64,000 nucleotides of DNA from contig JAHELC010000002.1 in the NCBI GenBank assembly GCA_024644405.1, positions 124,001-188,000 on the forward strand, read 5' to 3'. The position numbers and the translations under genes are program-made. The stretch is from Nitrospinaceae bacterium. Its GTDB lineage: Bacteria > Nitrospinota > Nitrospinia > Nitrospinales > Nitrospinaceae. The notes beneath the pieces were generated by a model, which saw only the letters and a list, made by a program, of their open reading frames with translations, did no database searches and had not been told where the DNA came from. Below are positions 34,638 through 49,894 of this stretch, piece by piece; the first letter of the stretch is position 1, and each line of letters begins with the position of its first letter.

Positions 34638-34641
<4 letters not shown>

Positions 34642-35204
34642 TCTGGTTGTTCCTCCGTTTGTTGAGATTTCTTGTTGAGTTCTTTCAGAGTTTCTTCGAT
34701 CCCGCGCACCGCTTCTTCCAGGGTTTCATTGACCTGGGGAATTTCTTCATCGGTGAAAGAGGAGAGCACATAATCGACAACTTCTCCCCCGTCTTCCGGG
34801 CGACCCACTCCGATACGGAACCGTGCGAATTCGCCCGTTCCCAGTTTTTCAATAATGGAACCGACGCCACCGTGACCGGCGTTGCCCCCTTTGAATTTTT
34901 TTTTGATCTTTCCCAGAGGCAAATCGATTTCGTCATGAACGACGATCATCCGCTCCGGGGGAATGTCCAAAGCATGCAGAAGCGCTTTGGCGGCCACTCC
35001 GCTTTTATTCATATACGTCATGGCCTTGGAGACAACGACGGGGCACCCCTCGACTTCACCCCGGCCACTCAGAGCCCGGTGTTGATGCTGATCCAGTTTG
35101 ATCCGATGCTTTTCAGCCAGGGTATCGATTACCAAAAACCCCATGTTATGCCGCGTCAACTCGTAACGGGGACCGGGGTTTCCCAACCCTAGAATCAGGT
35201 ACAC
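34638..35204 (-). CDS. pth: Peptidyl-tRNA hydrolase
   Basis: Releases tRNA from stalled peptidyl-tRNA. 188 residues. Signatures: [25 protein letters not shown] with the catalytic His and Asn, [45 protein letters not shown]. It is 6 bp from rplY and overlaps hppA by 4 bp. The Lys/Gln-rich C-terminal tail is typical. Confidence 0.97.
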
Positions 35205-35209
35205 AGGCT

Positions 35210-35890
35210 TTATTTCTTTTCGGCTTCAGCCGACTCACCCTTATCTTTATCTTCGGCTTTTTCGGCTGTTGCGCCTTCTTCTTCACCTTCCTCGGCGCCT
35301 TCAACCAATTCTTCTTCTGCCGGAGCTTCTTCGACCACCTTCACTTCATGGACGGAAACAACCGACTCGGACAGGTGATCCAAAATCTCAATATTGTCAG
35401 GCACGTCCAGATCGGAGATATGAACCACCTGATCGAGTTCCACCTGGGTCATATCCACCTTGAAAGACTCGGGAATTTCCCCGGGAAGACATTTGACCTC
35501 TACGGTATGCAGGTTCTGCTCGACCATGCCGCCTAACTTTTCGCCGGGGGAATGTCCCACCAAAACAACAGGAACGTCCACCTTGATTTCCTGCTTCATA
35601 TTGACTTCCAGGAAATCTGCATGCTCCCATCCATCCCGGACGGGATGTTGCTGATGGTCCTTAATAACCACGACCCGTTTTTTCTCGGAGTCGCCCTCGA
35701 TAGCAAGCTCGATCAAGCTGTTGAGTCCTTCTTTCTCGATGAGTTTTTTTAATTCTTTGGGATTCACCGTGAAGCTGACGTTGGCTTTCCCACCATACAC
35801 GACTGCCGGCAGGAATCCCTCATCGCGTAATCGACGATTGGCGCCTTTGCCCCGGCCTTCTCTTATTTTTCCTTTCAATGCAACTGCCAT
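35210..35890 (-). CDS. rplY: Ribosomal protein L25 / CTC family (long form)
   Basis: 226 residues from the ATG at 35890, which gives the usual MAVALKGKIREG start (a TTG 24 bp upstream is possible). The N-terminal L25 domain binds 5S rRNA (GRGKGANRRLRDEGFLPAVVYGGK), followed by the CTC C-terminal beta domain (VDVPVVLVGHSPGEKLGGMVEQNLHTVEVKCLPGEIPE). A strongly acidic Glu/Ala-rich tail of about 30 residues closes the protein. Gene order prs-rplY-pth is conserved in many bacteria. Confidence 0.96.
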   Translation of the reverse strand: MAVALKGKIREGRGKGANRRLRDEGFLPAVVYGGKANVSFTVNPKELKKLIEKEGLNSLIELAIEGDSEKKRVVVIKDHQQHPVRDGWEHADFLEVNMKQEIKVDVPVVLVGHSPGEKLGGMVEQNLHTVEVKCLPGEIPESFKVDMTQVELDQVVHISDLDVPDNIEILDHLSESVVSVHEVKVVEEAPAEEELVEGAEEGEEEGATAEKAEDKDKGESAEAEKK

Positions 35891-35891
35891 T

Positions 35892-36854
35892 TTACAAATC
35901 TCCGTCTGAATCAAATAACGAACTCACAGACGATTCGCTGTGAATTCTAATGATCGCCTCCCCAAACAAGGGAGCGACCGATAATATCTTAATTTTCCCG
36001 ATTGCCTCCAACTCCTTCGACAACGGGATGGTGTTGGTGGAAATAACCGATTGGATCGGTGAACTCTGTATTCGTTCCCCAGCCGGTCCCGAAAGCACCG
36101 GATGGGTACACAGCCCGTGCACTTCGGCGGCGCCGGCATCGAGCAGGGCGTTGGTTGCTTCAATCAAGGTGCCGGCCGTGTCGATCATATCGTCGACGAT
36201 GATCGCGACCTTGCCTTTGACATCACCGATGATGTTCATGGCTTTGGCGACATTGGGCCCTTCCCGCCGCTTATCAATAATGGCGAGGGACGTTCCCATC
36301 CGCTTGGCGTAGGCCCGGGCACGTTCCACACCGCCCGCGTCGGGAGAAATAACCACCGGATCCTTGAAATTGAGCTTCTTAATGTATCCGATCAACACGT
36401 TAATGGCAAACAAATGATCCACAGGAATGTTAAAAAATCCCTGTATCTGACCGGCATGCAGATCCATCGTCAGCACCCGGTCGGTGCCCGCCGTGTGCAG
36501 GATGTCGGCTACCAGTTTTGAGGTGATGGGCACCCGGGGCTCGCATTTGCGGTCCTGCCGCGCATATCCGTAATAAGGGATCACGGCGGTGATGCGCTTG
36601 GCCGAGGCGCGTTTGAGGGCGTCGATCATGATGAGCAGTTCCATCACGTTGGTATTTCCCGGTGTACAGGTGGACTGGAGGACAAACACGTCTCCGCCGC
36701 GTACATTTTCCTCGATCCGGACAAAGATTTCCTCGTCGGAAAAGGCCTTGATGACCGAATTGCCCATATGGATATCCATATAATCACAGATTTCCTGAGT
36801 CAGACCCCGATTGGATCTGCCGGAAAACACCAGAACTCTGCCGTTGTCACCCAT
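35892..36854 (-). CDS. prs: Ribose-phosphate pyrophosphokinase
   Basis: Makes PRPP from ribose-5-phosphate and ATP. 320 residues, typical. Signatures: [61 protein letters not shown], the catalytic [17 protein letters not shown] and the PRPP-binding loop [15 protein letters not shown]. It lies between tRNA-Gln and rplY. Confidence 0.98.
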
Positions 36855-38110: not shown

Positions 38111-38884
38111 TCAGGGAACATTCAATTGAAAGGCGTCTTCCGGCACCCCTTGATTGATGAGGGGATTGTTGAATTTCATGACCACTGCATCGCCCAGCTG
38201 CGGGCGTTCCACGGTAATGATATGGGGGAACAAGTGCCCTTCCGCATCCTGGTAATCTTCCCAATGCACGGTGTAAACCCGTTTTCCACCTTCCCATTTA
38301 GCCAGCCGGACGGGATGGAGGGTATCGGGATCCACTTCAATTTCCAGCGGTGCGTTGTGCTCCGTGTCCACGGCGGTAATCTGATAATTGCCGGTTTCGG
38401 GATTCCAGCGGACGTCTTTCAGATGAAGCTCAGCGAGCCGGGGAATCTTACCCGAAAAAACGCTGACGTATTCGCGAAAATCAAACACCGTCCCAAACGT
38501 CCGCATCATGATATCCCACACTTCCCGGTTCCGGTACAGTTTGTTGCTTTTGGTATCATACAGAAGAATTTGCGTTTGATCGGAAATCAATACGCCCACC
38601 GGCTGACTGAACAGATTCAGGGTATCCAGCCGCAATGAAGTCTCTCCATCAATCAACAGCACCTGCTTGAGGTTGTGGTTCTTCTCCGGGGTCCTGATCG
38701 CGGACTTGACCAGGGATTTGATATTGTGGATGCCGTCCTGCCGCATCGTCAATTGCCGGGAAATCTCGTCGAGGGTGAGGAACTGCGCGGGAGGTTCGAC
38801 CGGTTTGGGAGGCGGCAGGGTTTCACAGGCGGTCAGAACGCCCGCCAAAACACACAGGAGGAGTTTAAGTTTTCGTTTCATCAA
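38111..38884 (-). CDS. LolB-like outer-membrane lipoprotein
   Basis: 257 residues with a lipoprotein signal (LLLCVLAGVLTACE, lipobox LTAC). The mature part resembles LolB/DUF4292 beta-sandwich proteins (SLVKSAIRTPEKNHNLKQVLLIDGETSLRLDTLNLFSQPVGVLISDQTQILLYD). In gammaproteobacteria LolB inserts lipoproteins in the outer membrane and sits beside ispE. Position next to ispE plus the fold supports a LolB-type role, though similarity is weak and the name is therefore not assigned firmly. Confidence 0.75.
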   Translation of the reverse strand: MMKRKLKLLLCVLAGVLTACETLPPPKPVEPPAQFLTLDEISRQLTMRQDGIHNIKSLVKSAIRTPEKNHNLKQVLLIDGETSLRLDTLNLFSQPVGVLISDQTQILLYDTKSNKLYRNREVWDIMMRTFGTVFDFREYVSVFSGKIPRLAELHLKDVRWNPETGNYQITAVDTEHNAPLEIEVDPDTLHPVRLAKWEGGKRVYTVHWEDYQDAEGHLFPHIITVERPQLGDAVVMKFNNPLINQGVPEDAFQLNVP

Positions 38885-38911: not shown

Positions 38912-41215
38912 TCAAAAACTTTGCAACATCAATTCATCCGCTTGACGGATTTTCTCCCGGAGTTTGTCCGGGTCGGGAATTTCTCCGGCCGGTTCCTCCA
39001 GTCTCTTCAGGGTCAACGCCAGGCTGGTCTTCCAGGCTTTGCGGGCTTCCGTAACATTGTCCATGGAAAAATGCACGTCTCCCAAATGGTCATAGAGCAC
39101 CGGATCGGGCTGGGCGTACACCATGGCTTTTTTAATATGGATCAAAGCCTGCTTCGGCTCGCCTTTTTTGTGATAAATCCATCCCAGGCTGTCCAGGAAA
39201 TATCCGTTGCGGGGCTGGATATTCAGCGCCTGCTCCAGATGGTGCAGAGCCTTGTCGAGATCTTCTCCCTTCGTCGCGTAAATATACCCGATGAAGTTGT
39301 GCGCATTGGAATGATGCGGGTTGATTTCCAGCGTCTGCTTCATGCTGGCGATGGCTTTGTCGTATTGCCCGAGTCGCTCGAGCAGCGCGCCCTGCTCAAA
39401 GTAGTATGTATCCTTTTTGTCATTCAGTTGGATGGCCTTGTTGATATTCTGGAAAGCTTCTTCATTTTCATTCAACGACATGTGGGCCAATGCCAGCGCA
39501 TGATAATACCGGTCATTATTGGGGTCGATGGCCACCGCTTTATTCAAGAGCTCAATCGATTTTTTCATCTCCTTGTTGAGTCCGTAGAGCCGGGCCAGAT
39601 TCAACAGGATATCAACCGAGTCTTCACCAGCACCGTCTTTACGATAGGCTTCCACTTCGGTGATAGCTTTATCCATCCTGCCGAACAACTCAAAAATTTT
39701 GGCGATGACGAGGCGCAACTCCTTGTCTTCTTCATTGGCGAGCGCCAACCGAAACTCGTCTACGGCTTCGAGATAAACCGCCTGCTCATAAAAAATGATG
39801 CCGATCTGGGTATGGATGTTGGCCTCACCCGGTTCGAAAGGAGGGACGTCCGCCACTTCCACGTTGTCGGACGATTGGGCATCGGCCATCAAATCGAATC
39901 GTTTTAAATGCTCGTTGATTTTTTTATCATCGGGTTTCAGTTTCAAAATAATTTTGTACTGCTCCATGGCCTCCGGATATTTTTTCTGAAGCTCCAGCAC
40001 ACGGGCCAGGTTTTCCCGGGCTTCGATGAAGCTGGGGCGAAGGGTCAGGGATTTCTTGAATTTCTCCTCGGCGCTTTGCATTTCACCGGTACGCACCAGG
40101 GCCGATCCCAGATAGTGATACCCCAGGGGGTTGGCCGGTTCCACCACGGTGGCCTGATGAAACAGTTCGCGCGCATCCTTAAATTGCTTGAGCGCCCGCA
40201 GGTTGTACCCGGCGAGCAAATAGGCGCGGGCATTGGAAGGTTCCACTTCCATAACCTTGTTGTAATGAGCCAAGGCCTCTTGATATTTGCCCTGACTGGA
40301 TAAAATATCACCCATAATCATACGGACCCGCACGTTATCCGGAAAACGGTCGATCGCATTCTTCCCGGCGGCCAGCGCCAGCTGAAATTGACCGGTGCGC
40401 AAATACAGGCTGACCAGATGTGTGTGTAGATTTTCTCGGGACGGATCGAACTGAACAACCTGCGCATAGTGCCGGGTGGCTTCGTCAAAATCTCCCTCCC
40501 GTTCGAACTTGTACGCTTTTAAATAATGGTAATACGCACGCGGATCCCGATAATTCCGGTCAGGGTATTTTTTGTTGAGGGCCTGAACCTGCCGGACGGC
40601 ATAGGAGGACTTGGATGAACCGGGGGTCATCGATGTCGTCTGATCACTCACATCCACCTCTACGGCGCTGGAATGGCTGGAGGGTTGCAAAGACGCACAA
40701 TTGGCAAGGATAAAAATGCTCACCCACGCCAGGGCGACAAACCGGAGTTTCGTACTCAGGCGGGCAAGACGCTCCCGCAATTCGGGGTCCGGTATCGGTT
40801 TCAAATGCTCCTCTCGGGCAACAGCATGCTTATCCATAGGTTGATTTTGACTCGGGGATGCCGAGATTTTTAAGGGTTTGTTGGAATTTATGGGGATGCC
40901 TTCGACCTGTTTAACCATTATCCCTATAAAGCCTTTAGAATCAAACATTTTATTCAATTTTAACAGGATTTTCCGCTCGTAGGTGCGCACGACCGGCACC
41001 CATTCCTTGCCATAAACCTCCACAAATAGAGTGCTTTCGGCCACTTTTGTGACCCGCGACCGGCTCCCGATTTCGTCTCCGACCACGATGCTCCAGAGCA
41101 GGTTGATCCGGTTCAAGTCCGAATCGGGGGTTTCCGGATCGGGCAACGATTTTATCGTTTCGGCTAAAACTTCACCCATCGAACTCCAGCCGAAAGATTT
41201 TTTTTGTTGCGCCAA
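38912..41215 (-). CDS. DciA (DUF721) domain fused to a membrane-anchored TPR protein
   Basis: 767 residues. Residues about 1-120 match DciA/DUF721, the domain of bacterial replicative-helicase loaders (LLWSIVVGDEIGSRSRVTKVAESTLFVEVYGKEWVPVV, then LLKLNKMF). A polar linker follows, then a hydrophobic segment at about 162-182 (LRFVALAWVSIFILANCASL) with a lipobox-like LANC. The remaining 560 residues are about 12-14 TPR units. The frame is unbroken. Topology with DciA in the cytoplasm and TPRs outside is consistent with a single-pass membrane protein. An internal ATG at 40837 could start a separate lipoprotein, but no ribosome-binding site precedes it. The TPR half resembles the TPR gene that sits beside lolB in pseudomonads. 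Confidence 0.85.
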   Translation of the reverse strand: MAQQKKSFGWSSMGEVLAETIKSLPDPETPDSDLNRINLLWSIVVGDEIGSRSRVTKVAESTLFVEVYGKEWVPVVRTYERKILLKLNKMFDSKGFIGIMVKQVEGIPINSNKPLKISASPSQNQPMDKHAVAREEHLKPIPDPELRERLARLSTKLRFVALAWVSIFILANCASLQPSSHSSAVEVDVSDQTTSMTPGSSKSSYAVRQVQALNKKYPDRNYRDPRAYYHYLKAYKFEREGDFDEATRHYAQVVQFDPSRENLHTHLVSLYLRTGQFQLALAAGKNAIDRFPDNVRVRMIMGDILSSQGKYQEALAHYNKVMEVEPSNARAYLLAGYNLRALKQFKDARELFHQATVVEPANPLGYHYLGSALVRTGEMQSAEEKFKKSLTLRPSFIEARENLARVLELQKKYPEAMEQYKIILKLKPDDKKINEHLKRFDLMADAQSSDNVEVADVPPFEPGEANIHTQIGIIFYEQAVYLEAVDEFRLALANEEDKELRLVIAKIFELFGRMDKAITEVEAYRKDGAGEDSVDILLNLARLYGLNKEMKKSIELLNKAVAIDPNNDRYYHALALAHMSLNENEEAFQNINKAIQLNDKKDTYYFEQGALLERLGQYDKAIASMKQTLEINPHHSNAHNFIGYIYATKGEDLDKALHHLEQALNIQPRNGYFLDSLGWIYHKKGEPKQALIHIKKAMVYAQPDPVLYDHLGDVHFSMDNVTEARKAWKTSLALTLKRLEEPAGEIPDPDKLREKIRQADELMLQSF

Positions 41216-47407: not shown

Positions 47408-49894
47408 CTAAGGATTTTGAGCGAAGGACGAATCCACTTCCATCTTGCCGGAAAACTTTTTACTGATCCAGCCGGATTGGCCGTCCTGAAGTTCGACTTG
47501 ATACCACTCGTCCATTTCTTCCAGCAGGGGCCGCATTTCGCCTCTTTTCAAGCTACCGATCACTTTGCTCTGCGAGGAAGGTGAGGTACGCACATTCAAG
47601 GAAGATCCTTCCGGCACCTTGACCACCACCACCGTGGTGACCATCTCCTTCTTCTCTTTTTTTGCCGGAGTATTCCAGTGCTTCTTTTTCGCTTTCGGCG
47701 CGGGTAACGGAGCTTCAAAAGAAGCTTTTTGAGTCCCGCCCTCAATAACGGAAAACTTTTTGCTGATCCAACCGGTGGTTTCGTCTTCAAATTGAACCTG
47801 GTACCAGTCGCCCTCTTCCTTCAACAAGGGCAGCTTGTCTCCACGGAACAGCATATCCACCACGGCGCCACTGGAAGACGGAAGGGAACGTACATTCAAA
47901 GTCGAACCTTCCCTCACTGTAACGACGACCATAGCCCCCGAAGCCTGCTGTGGATCAGACTGAGATTGATCAGACTGAACAGGAGCCAATTCGCTCGTCA
48001 ACTCTGTTTCCTGCGCGGATGCTAACTCTGTTTCCTCCGCTGGTGAAGCGACCGTTGAATTTACCGTCCGCGTGGTTGAATAGCTTTTACTCACCCAGCC
48101 GGTCAATCCCTCTTCAATTTCGATCTGATACCAATCCCCTGATTCACTCATGAAAGGCATCATGTCGCCATTTTCCAGGTAACCCAGAATTTCCCCCTGT
48201 GTTGAGGGTTGCGACCGCACATTGAGGGTGGAACCCTCGCTCATCTGGACCACCACCATGATCTGCAAAGTCTCCGGTTGAGGAGTTGAGGCATCCATGG
48301 AGGAGGTTTCCATAGGGGGGGAGGGGACCAGGGCCGCCACCGTTTCAGATACCGTTTCCTGACTTATTGATTCTTCCGGATCCGGTGGAGCTGTTTCTAC
48401 CGGGGTGCTTTCAACCGGCGTTTCCTGTTTCGCACCTTGATCCTCCGGGTCGAAGCTGGCAACTTCCATGGGCTTTTCTTCTGTACTTGCCTCTGCCTTC
48501 ATCTCTTGGACGGGCTCGGGTTGCGTCTGTTCAGGGAGTGCCTGTTCGGGGGGTGCGCTTTCCGCTTTTGCGATTTCTTCTTTTACGATGCGGGCAATTC
48601 TTTCACTTTCGGACTCGACCGTTTCCGGTTGAGCGGTTTCCGCCTGTGCCACTGCCGTTTCAGGTTCTTCCTGTTTCGCTACTTCATTATTGGTTGGCTC
48701 TATCGTACTCTCAGCTGAGGCGGTTGCGGCCTCCGTTGTTTCCTGTTCAACCGTTTTCATTTTGATATCCCCCGCCGCTGTATCGGTAGATTCGGGAGCT
48801 TCCACTTCTGCAGGAATAACAGGTACCGGAGCGGGTTTTAAATCGGGGAGAGTGTCCAGACCCGTTGCGGCCACCTCATCAGGATCTCCGCTGAGTGGAT
48901 TGAACTCGGCCGGGACCCTTTGACTATCCTTGCTCTCCGCGGGTGTCCTGGCGGCAGTCTGTTCTCCGCCGGACCTCTCGGGTTTTTCAAAATCCTCAAA
49001 CGGGATCGCGGCGACAGGATCATTGTCCTGCGGAGCGGCCACGCTTTCTTCAGCGATATCTTCCACAGCGGCGGAGTCGGTGCCGAAAAAGTCACCCGAT
49101 TTTTTCTTTTTGGTACCGGGAGGTGGGGGGGTATAGGTCGCCGTGGGACTGGCAGTACTGTATTGGGGCGGCTTTTCCGATGACGCCCAGCTGGAGTCAC
49201 CGCCCGGACTGGCTGTTGCCTTGCCGGAGGAAATCCAACTTTTAGTTTGCGAAGTCGACTTGGCAACCCTGTTGGGATGCGCTTCCAGATATTCCCGCGC
49301 CCGTACCGCGTTCAATCCGTCGGGAAAACGGTTGACGAAATCCTGGTAGGCGGCTGAGTTATCCGCCTTGATCACCTGTAAAAAAATCTGGTCCTCCACC
49401 TGCTCCTGCTTGAACAGGATCGCCTGTTTTTCTTCAGGCTCGACAATCTGCTCCAACCGGGCAAGGATGACCAGCGTCTTGAAATAATCGCGGTTTTCGT
49501 GGAGCATACTGGCCTTGAACCGCAAGGCGCGGGCCAGGTTTTTTCGGATTTTGGGGTCGACCGGATCCAACCGATGGGCGGTCTCGAACTCCTGCAGAGC
49601 CTGTGACAACATATCCTGGGTGTAATACACCAACCCCAGGTTGTTATGTCCTTCAAATGAGTCGGGGTGCTTGGCCAGGAAAGATTCCCACAACTTGATG
49701 GCGGATTCAAACTGACCTTCGTTTTGAGCTTTTAAGGCCTGCGAAAACAAACTCTTATCAGGAACGGCTGTCACCGTCTGGGGAGCTTCGAACTGCTGAT
49801 CGGTCGGCTTATCGCCGCCGGAGGCACAACCTGAAAATACCAGCGCCAGCACCCCCATAAGGGCGATAAGGTGTTTACTCTCAAATAGTTTCAT
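47408..49894 (-). CDS. Large TPR/SH3b-repeat lipoprotein
   Basis: 828 residues. Lipoprotein signal (GVLALVFSGCAS, lipobox FSGC, Cys about 23). Then about two to three TPR units (QALKAQNEGQFESAIKLWESFL..., FEGHNNLGLVYYTQDMLSQALQEFETAHRLDP), a long low-complexity acidic, Gln/Glu/Thr/Ser-rich stretch (about 210-540), and three bacterial SH3 domains near 560-620, 665-725 and 750-815. Each SH3b has a GSTLNVRS..PS...G..L..GD motif, usually cell-wall binding. A role in envelope or peptidoglycan attachment is inferred. Confidence 0.85.
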   Translation of the reverse strand: MKLFESKHLIALMGVLALVFSGCASGGDKPTDQQFEAPQTVTAVPDKSLFSQALKAQNEGQFESAIKLWESFLAKHPDSFEGHNNLGLVYYTQDMLSQALQEFETAHRLDPVDPKIRKNLARALRFKASMLHENRDYFKTLVILARLEQIVEPEEKQAILFKQEQVEDQIFLQVIKADNSAAYQDFVNRFPDGLNAVRAREYLEAHPNRVAKSTSQTKSWISSGKATASPGGDSSWASSEKPPQYSTASPTATYTPPPPGTKKKKSGDFFGTDSAAVEDIAEESVAAPQDNDPVAAIPFEDFEKPERSGGEQTAARTPAESKDSQRVPAEFNPLSGDPDEVAATGLDTLPDLKPAPVPVIPAEVEAPESTDTAAGDIKMKTVEQETTEAATASAESTIEPTNNEVAKQEEPETAVAQAETAQPETVESESERIARIVKEEIAKAESAPPEQALPEQTQPEPVQEMKAEASTEEKPMEVASFDPEDQGAKQETPVESTPVETAPPDPEESISQETVSETVAALVPSPPMETSSMDASTPQPETLQIMVVVQMSEGSTLNVRSQPSTQGEILGYLENGDMMPFMSESGDWYQIEIEEGLTGWVSKSYSTTRTVNSTVASPAEETELASAQETELTSELAPVQSDQSQSDPQQASGAMVVVTVREGSTLNVRSLPSSSGAVVDMLFRGDKLPLLKEEGDWYQVQFEDETTGWISKKFSVIEGGTQKASFEAPLPAPKAKKKHWNTPAKKEKKEMVTTVVVVKVPEGSSLNVRTSPSSQSKVIGSLKRGEMRPLLEEMDEWYQVELQDGQSGWISKKFSGKMEVDSSFAQNP

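Follow-up and report, generated by a model that had tools for sequence, protein, structure and literature searches.

A DciA domain and an LbcA-like TPR protein in one reading frame in Nitrospinales and Methylomirabilota

DciA is the most widespread helicase loader of bacteria and has been treated as a free cytosolic protein. Known DciA proteins are free, soluble and about 100-180 amino acids long. Those of Caulobacter and Vibrio share a KH-like domain, a hinge and a C-terminal leucine helix of DnaB-binding type (PMC9825169, PMC9912922). Caulobacter DciA requires L163, L167 and L170 of this helix to bind DnaB and to complement (PMC9825169; also PMC12547741), and the C-terminal part of Vibrio DciA binds the LH-DH module (PMC9912922). 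LbcA (PA4667) of Pseudomonas aeruginosa is an outer-membrane lipoprotein with a long TPR solenoid, its gene shares an operon with lolB and ipk, and CtpA needs it to degrade cell-wall hydrolases (PMC6050968). It lacks a DciA domain, and its N-terminal signal peptide is an ordinary one. A literature search found no description of DUF721 with tetratricopeptide, nor, among the papers listed, of DciA with a lipoprotein, and PMC5109545 makes no mention of TPR or membrane.

The fused frame and its two halves

The window, a stretch of 64,000 nucleotides from a Nitrospinales genome of the phylum Nitrospinota, contains a single open frame of 767 codons in which, unlike in known DciA proteins, the DciA helix runs into a signal helix and a TPR protein of 595 amino acids. 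The features of this frame and the genes downstream of it are as follows.

38912-41215 (-): fused dciA-lbcA-like ORF, 767 amino acids, TTG start at 41213-41215; frame also found in relatives
40904-41176 (-): DciA (DUF721, KH-like) domain, about residues 14-104; PF05258, Foldseek 7ykm and 8a3v, invariant W41, L63 and W72
40835-40837 (-): internal ATG, M127; lacks a Shine-Dalgarno and is conserved in only part of the genus
40796-40903 (-): variable polar linker, about residues 105-140; relaxed dN/dS, indels of whole codons
40796-40798 (-): CCG (P140), at the site of the internal ATG that follows AAGGA or GAAGGA in other fused genera
40748-40795 (-): DciA C-terminal helix IPDPELRERLARLSTK (L146, L150, L153); motif shared with the C-terminus of free outgroup DciA
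40697-40741 (-): predicted signal/anchor helix ending in the lipobox LAN-C, residues 159-173 with Cys173; hydrophobicity, invariant N172 and C173
38915-40699 (-): LbcA-like TPR lipoprotein part, residues 173-767; overwhelming TPR matches, colinear with PA4667/LbcA 7rqf
38111-38884 (-): LolB-like lipoprotein gene, directly downstream; weak match to NF053559 (LolB1), placed like lolB of the lbcA-lolB-ipk operon (PMC6050968)
37187-38086 (-): ispE; TIGR00154, 253 bits
35892-36854, 35210-35914 and 34638-35204 (-): prs, rplY and pth homologues; translations read by eye, conserved order

The TTG start is preceded by a weak GGGG, and an alternative ATG at codon 13 by GGAG; the upstream TTG is favoured because the Trp just before codon 13 is conserved. 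In the AlphaFold2 model of the protein, residues 13-104 form a KH-like domain and residues 144-171 one helix, and a TPR solenoid follows. Pairwise NG86 estimates of dN/dS for close pairs, some with saturated dS, are 0.10-0.47 for the DciA domain, 0.27-1.29 for the linker and 0.06-0.28 for the TPR part, and mostly low for the DciA motif and signal helix.

An earlier note on this DNA had read a DciA domain, a polar linker, a membrane helix and a TPR protein in one frame, and its account of the DciA domain and of the frame is borne out. Residues 14-92 match the PF05258 profile at 31.9 bits (cut-off 24), the DciA structures 7ykm and 8a3v are the sole Foldseek matches at E<=0.001 to residues 1-173 of the model, and a sequence profile search with the DciA half also finds 7ykm. 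The three invariant residues W41, L63 and W72 are common to free and fused DciA. The note had also advised looking for a second, free DciA; the PF05258 search found none in the genome of 2,979,394 bases, so that the fused copy is the sole DciA, and the single DnaB gene is located elsewhere. The polar linker is present, but its end proves to be DciA's own DnaB-binding helix. L146, L150 and L153 form an LxxxLxxL helix with i, i+4, i+7 spacing that equals L163/L167/L170 of Caulobacter DciA and corresponds to the LH-DH-binding part of Vibrio DciA; it adjoins the lipoprotein signal helix and Cys directly and is degenerate in G013 of family f3. Sequence and model mark the N-terminal half as a true DciA, for which binding of DnaB and ssDNA and helicase loading are predicted.

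The proposed link to the membrane agrees with the hydrophobic helix and lipobox-like LANC at residues 159-173. The TPR matches agree with the note as well, but the protein is better described as an LbcA-like lipoprotein than as a generic membrane protein. LbcA (7rqf) matches residues 107-559 of the mature part colinearly (E=1.2e-12), other TPR proteins matching mostly over shorter spans, and the gene order lbcA-lolB-ispE-prs-rplY-pth places the gene upstream of lolB and ispE, as in P. aeruginosa (PMC6050968). By these likenesses the TPR half is an LbcA-like lipoprotein, and activation of CtpA is assumed from LbcA. The window also holds, at 47408-49894 (-), a large lipoprotein-like ORF (VFSGC) with a TPR-like part at its N-terminus and three SH3-like repeats.

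Distribution and history of the fusion

The fusion was surveyed in 61 genomes and then in 77 Nitrospinota genomes. All genomes of the window genus that have a DciA match carry the fused frame, and direct reading shows it in a total of 26 Nitrospinales genomes and in G068, a Nitrospinota MAG of an outgroup order. Families f1, f3 and f4 are fused wherever DciA was found, as are genera g9, g12, g13 and g16 of f2, while in f2 genera g4, g8, g11, g14 and g15 the dciA and TPR genes are separate and adjacent. G059 (L083) is the only split member read in g9; its linker is shifted by one base relative to its fused neighbours, and its split is a recent fission or else an error. The fusion of G068 (L101:2230-4524), whose genus contains two other genomes, both split, would be independent; it rests on one MAG and could be a single-assembly error. 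A Nitrospinaceae-type dciA-TPR locus is also carried by L165 (JAJFIR010000028.1), which is titled Emcibacteraceae, an alphaproteobacterium, and is probably misbinned or mislabelled.

Fused dciA-TPR ORFs are found in 17 Methylomirabilota ("Rokubacteria") genomes. The Rokuibacteriota contig L201 displays the same architecture (DciA 59.1 bits, lipobox LAGC), and reading of the genes behind it showed LolB-like, ispE and prs; the phylum search with direct reading added 16 genomes. In most split Methylomirabilota the stop of dciA and the start of the TPR gene overlap (ATGA or GTGA). The Fitch count on the Methylomirabilota tree is 3; added to Nitrospinales and to G068, the latter being one MAG, this points to at least four independent fusions. 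No dciA-TPR fusion was verified among the matches listed for 297 Desulfobacterota genomes, and the fusion is thus not a general property of DciA. Three long Desulfobacterota frames were rejected as upstream frame artefacts.

The fusion, its conservation and its recurrence are held with high confidence. The earlier note had considered sequencing errors that delete the stop between two genes; such an error, whether of sequencing or of assembly, is barely conceivable. The genomes are mostly draft or MAG assemblies, but the frame is fused in 44 genomes of two phyla, including the single-contig G008 and G031, and its linkers have diverged in frame, the 27 Nitrospinota fusions having 15 different linker lengths without a frame break. 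With fusions in the same genus and throughout the 26 Nitrospinales, frameshift error is excluded; only G068 and G059 could singly be errors.

Relatives with two separate genes, which the note had paired with sequencing errors as the case against a fusion, do exist, but later fission explains them better than errors. In most outgroup orders a free DciA of about 165 amino acids ends in I-K-D-x-x-L-K-x-x-I-x-R-I, and a TPR lipoprotein gene comes next. In fused proteins the motif is retained right in front of the hydrophobic helix, DciA of the split Nitrospinales clades stops before it, and in g11 a decaying copy is found on the N-terminus of the TPR protein. In split relatives the lipoprotein signal at the N-terminus of the TPR protein is an ordinary one. 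The TPR+IspE tree by itself, with 6 changes under parsimony, prefers neither direction. As a reading of the sequences, one early fusion in Nitrospinales followed by several fissions is favoured by what is left of the motif and by the Asn-Cys lipobox held in common.

Probable processing of the fused protein and a possible internal start

The fused frame probably encodes one bitopic preprotein. The N-terminal 156 residues, a complete DciA with KH-like domain, linker and leucine helix, would remain in the cytosol, and the following hydrophobic helix would be the signal sequence of the LbcA-like outer-membrane lipoprotein, with the basic C-terminal helix of DciA serving as the n-region of the signal peptide. 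Sec would insert the precursor N-in/C-out, Lgt would lipidate Cys173 and LspA would cut before it. The freed TPR lipoprotein would be sorted outward, where LbcA-type proteins activate the CtpA protease that limits cell-wall hydrolases, and the signal helix would stay on DciA as a C-terminal membrane anchor until DciA is proteolysed. We infer that the precursor is inserted and cleaved and that DciA is active and sits at the membrane. Some viral polyproteins, such as flavivirus capsid-prM, likewise carry an internal signal peptide behind a cytosolic protein and are separated by signal peptidase; they are unrelated, and the analogy is one of working only.

The lipobox Cys is invariant in all fused Nitrospinota proteins, as are both N172 and C173 in an alignment of 24 fused Nitrospinales proteins, and an invariant Cys argues for lipidation and cleavage. 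The Methylomirabilota lipobox is mostly canonical (LAGC and similar), with Gly, Ala or Ser at -1 in the 16 fusions examined. The residue at -1 is usually one of these three, but it is Asn in 26 of 26 Nitrospinales fusions, the window protein included, which makes the efficiency of cleavage in Nitrospinales uncertain. Free lipoproteins of split relatives also carry Asn at -1. This Asn (window 40697-40702) occurs in many split relatives, with Gly or Ala in the outgroups, g8 and g15, and seems to be a derived character that goes with the fusion.

The protein might instead be stable and uncleaved, spanning the membrane and coupling helicase loading to the envelope. Such a layout is that of the bitopic ToxR/CadC proteins, with a cytosolic DNA-binding N-terminal domain, one membrane helix and a periplasmic C-terminal domain; these are transcription regulators without a lipobox and have no sequence relation to the window protein. 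The atypical Asn at -1, the single continuous predicted helix 144-171 and the basic helix ahead of the hydrophobic stretch, from which N-in topology is expected, are compatible with this arrangement. It is nevertheless improbable, given the invariant Cys, the canonical lipobox of Methylomirabilota and the split relatives, which possess ordinary free lipoproteins and indicate that several apparent fissions were tolerated. Processing into a membrane-anchored DciA and an LbcA-like lipoprotein is most likely from the sequence features, so that of the single 767-residue product envisaged in the note the single gene stands and two processed proteins are the likelier outcome.

The note had allowed that the second part starts internally at ATG 40837 without a ribosome-binding site. 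That ATG indeed has no Shine-Dalgarno sequence; an internal start is not supported in the window genus but has counterparts in several other genera, which have an ATG 32-33 codons before the Cys behind an AGGA-type Shine-Dalgarno with anti-SD energies of -4.6 to -5.7 kcal/mol. The genes might then be nested, the long frame yielding DciA with a TPR tail, the internal start yielding the TPR lipoprotein, and the loss of the dciA stop being secondary. Both ATG and Shine-Dalgarno are kept in f1g2, f1g3, f2g12, f2g13, f2g16, two f4 genera and part of f2g9; among the in-frame ATGs of the TPR part, an anti-SD energy of -5 kcal/mol is reached by only 9.7%; the Gly codon within the Shine-Dalgarno is GGA or GGG at every occurrence; and split G026 begins at the same site. 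A conserved internal start in these fused genera would supply the lipoprotein without cleavage, which also weighs against a single precursor. Apparent conservation is inflated by shared ancestry, however, and the ATG is lost or without Shine-Dalgarno in f3, f4g7 and part of g9. It reads CCG, TCG or TCA in 7 of the 7 window-genus species read, where a TTG or GTG near a GAGGA-type sequence is found in some species but not all. Three Methylomirabilota (G128, G130, G133) have no ATG, GTG or TTG between the DciA domain and the lipobox, so that, barring non-canonical starts, their lipoprotein can come only from the long chain. Since no stop intervenes, every ribosome that translates dciA still makes the long chain. 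Nested genes are on this evidence unlikely, and in the window genus, which has no conserved internal start, the lipoprotein most likely derives from the full-length chain.

The DnaC-like loader and the meaning of the fusion

The genome of the window also encodes a DnaC/DnaI-like AAA+ protein of 348 amino acids with an N-terminal cysteine cluster (G000:C14:10313-11356; L112:1258-2304:-). Its best PDB match is 3ecc, DNA replication protein DnaC (E=1.4e-23), and its NCBIfam scores are below the cut-offs. Such a protein is found in 52 of 64 Nitrospinales and in 0 of 13 outgroup genomes of the phylum (PF01695 control). DciA thus coexists with a DnaC-like protein in the window genome and most Nitrospinales, whereas the usual trend is that DnaC/DnaI is absent where DciA occurs. 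As this is a trend and no strict criterion, the coexistence weakens the claim of a replication role but not that of family membership; the role may be shared with the DnaC-like protein.

DciA could also be a relaxed relic: a DnaC-like loader would have taken over in the Nitrospinales ancestor, leaving DciA decaying or repurposed as a lipoprotein domain. The distribution of the DnaC-like protein is in line with this, as are the decrease of DciA Pfam scores from 59-73 bits in the outgroups to 30-54 bits and the loss of the DnaB-binding helix in split clades, and relaxation by the DnaC-like protein may explain both the lower scores and the loss of the helix after fission. A loader in the same genome that could make DciA activity dispensable also counts against the precursor model. 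Purifying selection persists on the DciA domain, however, which is kept in nearly all near-complete genomes, and several fusion-bearing Methylomirabilota show no DnaC-like protein. The DnaC-type matches in fused Methylomirabilota are mainly of DnaA and IstB type as judged by length and score. The fusion thus does not need the DnaC-like protein, and a relic is rather doubtful.

Sorting DnaB into DciA type and DnaC type by Ser or Gly in its DH helix gave no clean signal. The DH-helix region of DnaB (DWPxLTxAAGxLSEA; L117, L298-L324) looks diverged in g4, g14 and g8. These are clades whose DciA lost the DnaB-binding helix, and co-evolution of the DH helix with that loss is possible from the sequences.

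The fusion recurs at the same junction, where under the precursor model the DnaB-binding helix of DciA would double as the signal peptide n-region. Tentatively, and at less than even likelihood, this would be a two-protein precursor that evolved several times: an essential-type cytosolic replication factor forms the pre-region of an outer-membrane lipoprotein, the two are separated by SPase II and made 1:1, and helicase loading is tied to lipoprotein export and cell-wall remodelling. The finding raises the questions of how processing proceeds in a protein that is half cytosolic and half periplasmic, and of what becomes of DciA once a DnaC-like loader is acquired. In this relative of nitrite oxidisers, a replication factor is probably anchored to the membrane by the export signal of a lipoprotein, which suggests a testable link between the start of replication and cell-wall growth; a physiological coupling of the two would be an attractive possibility.
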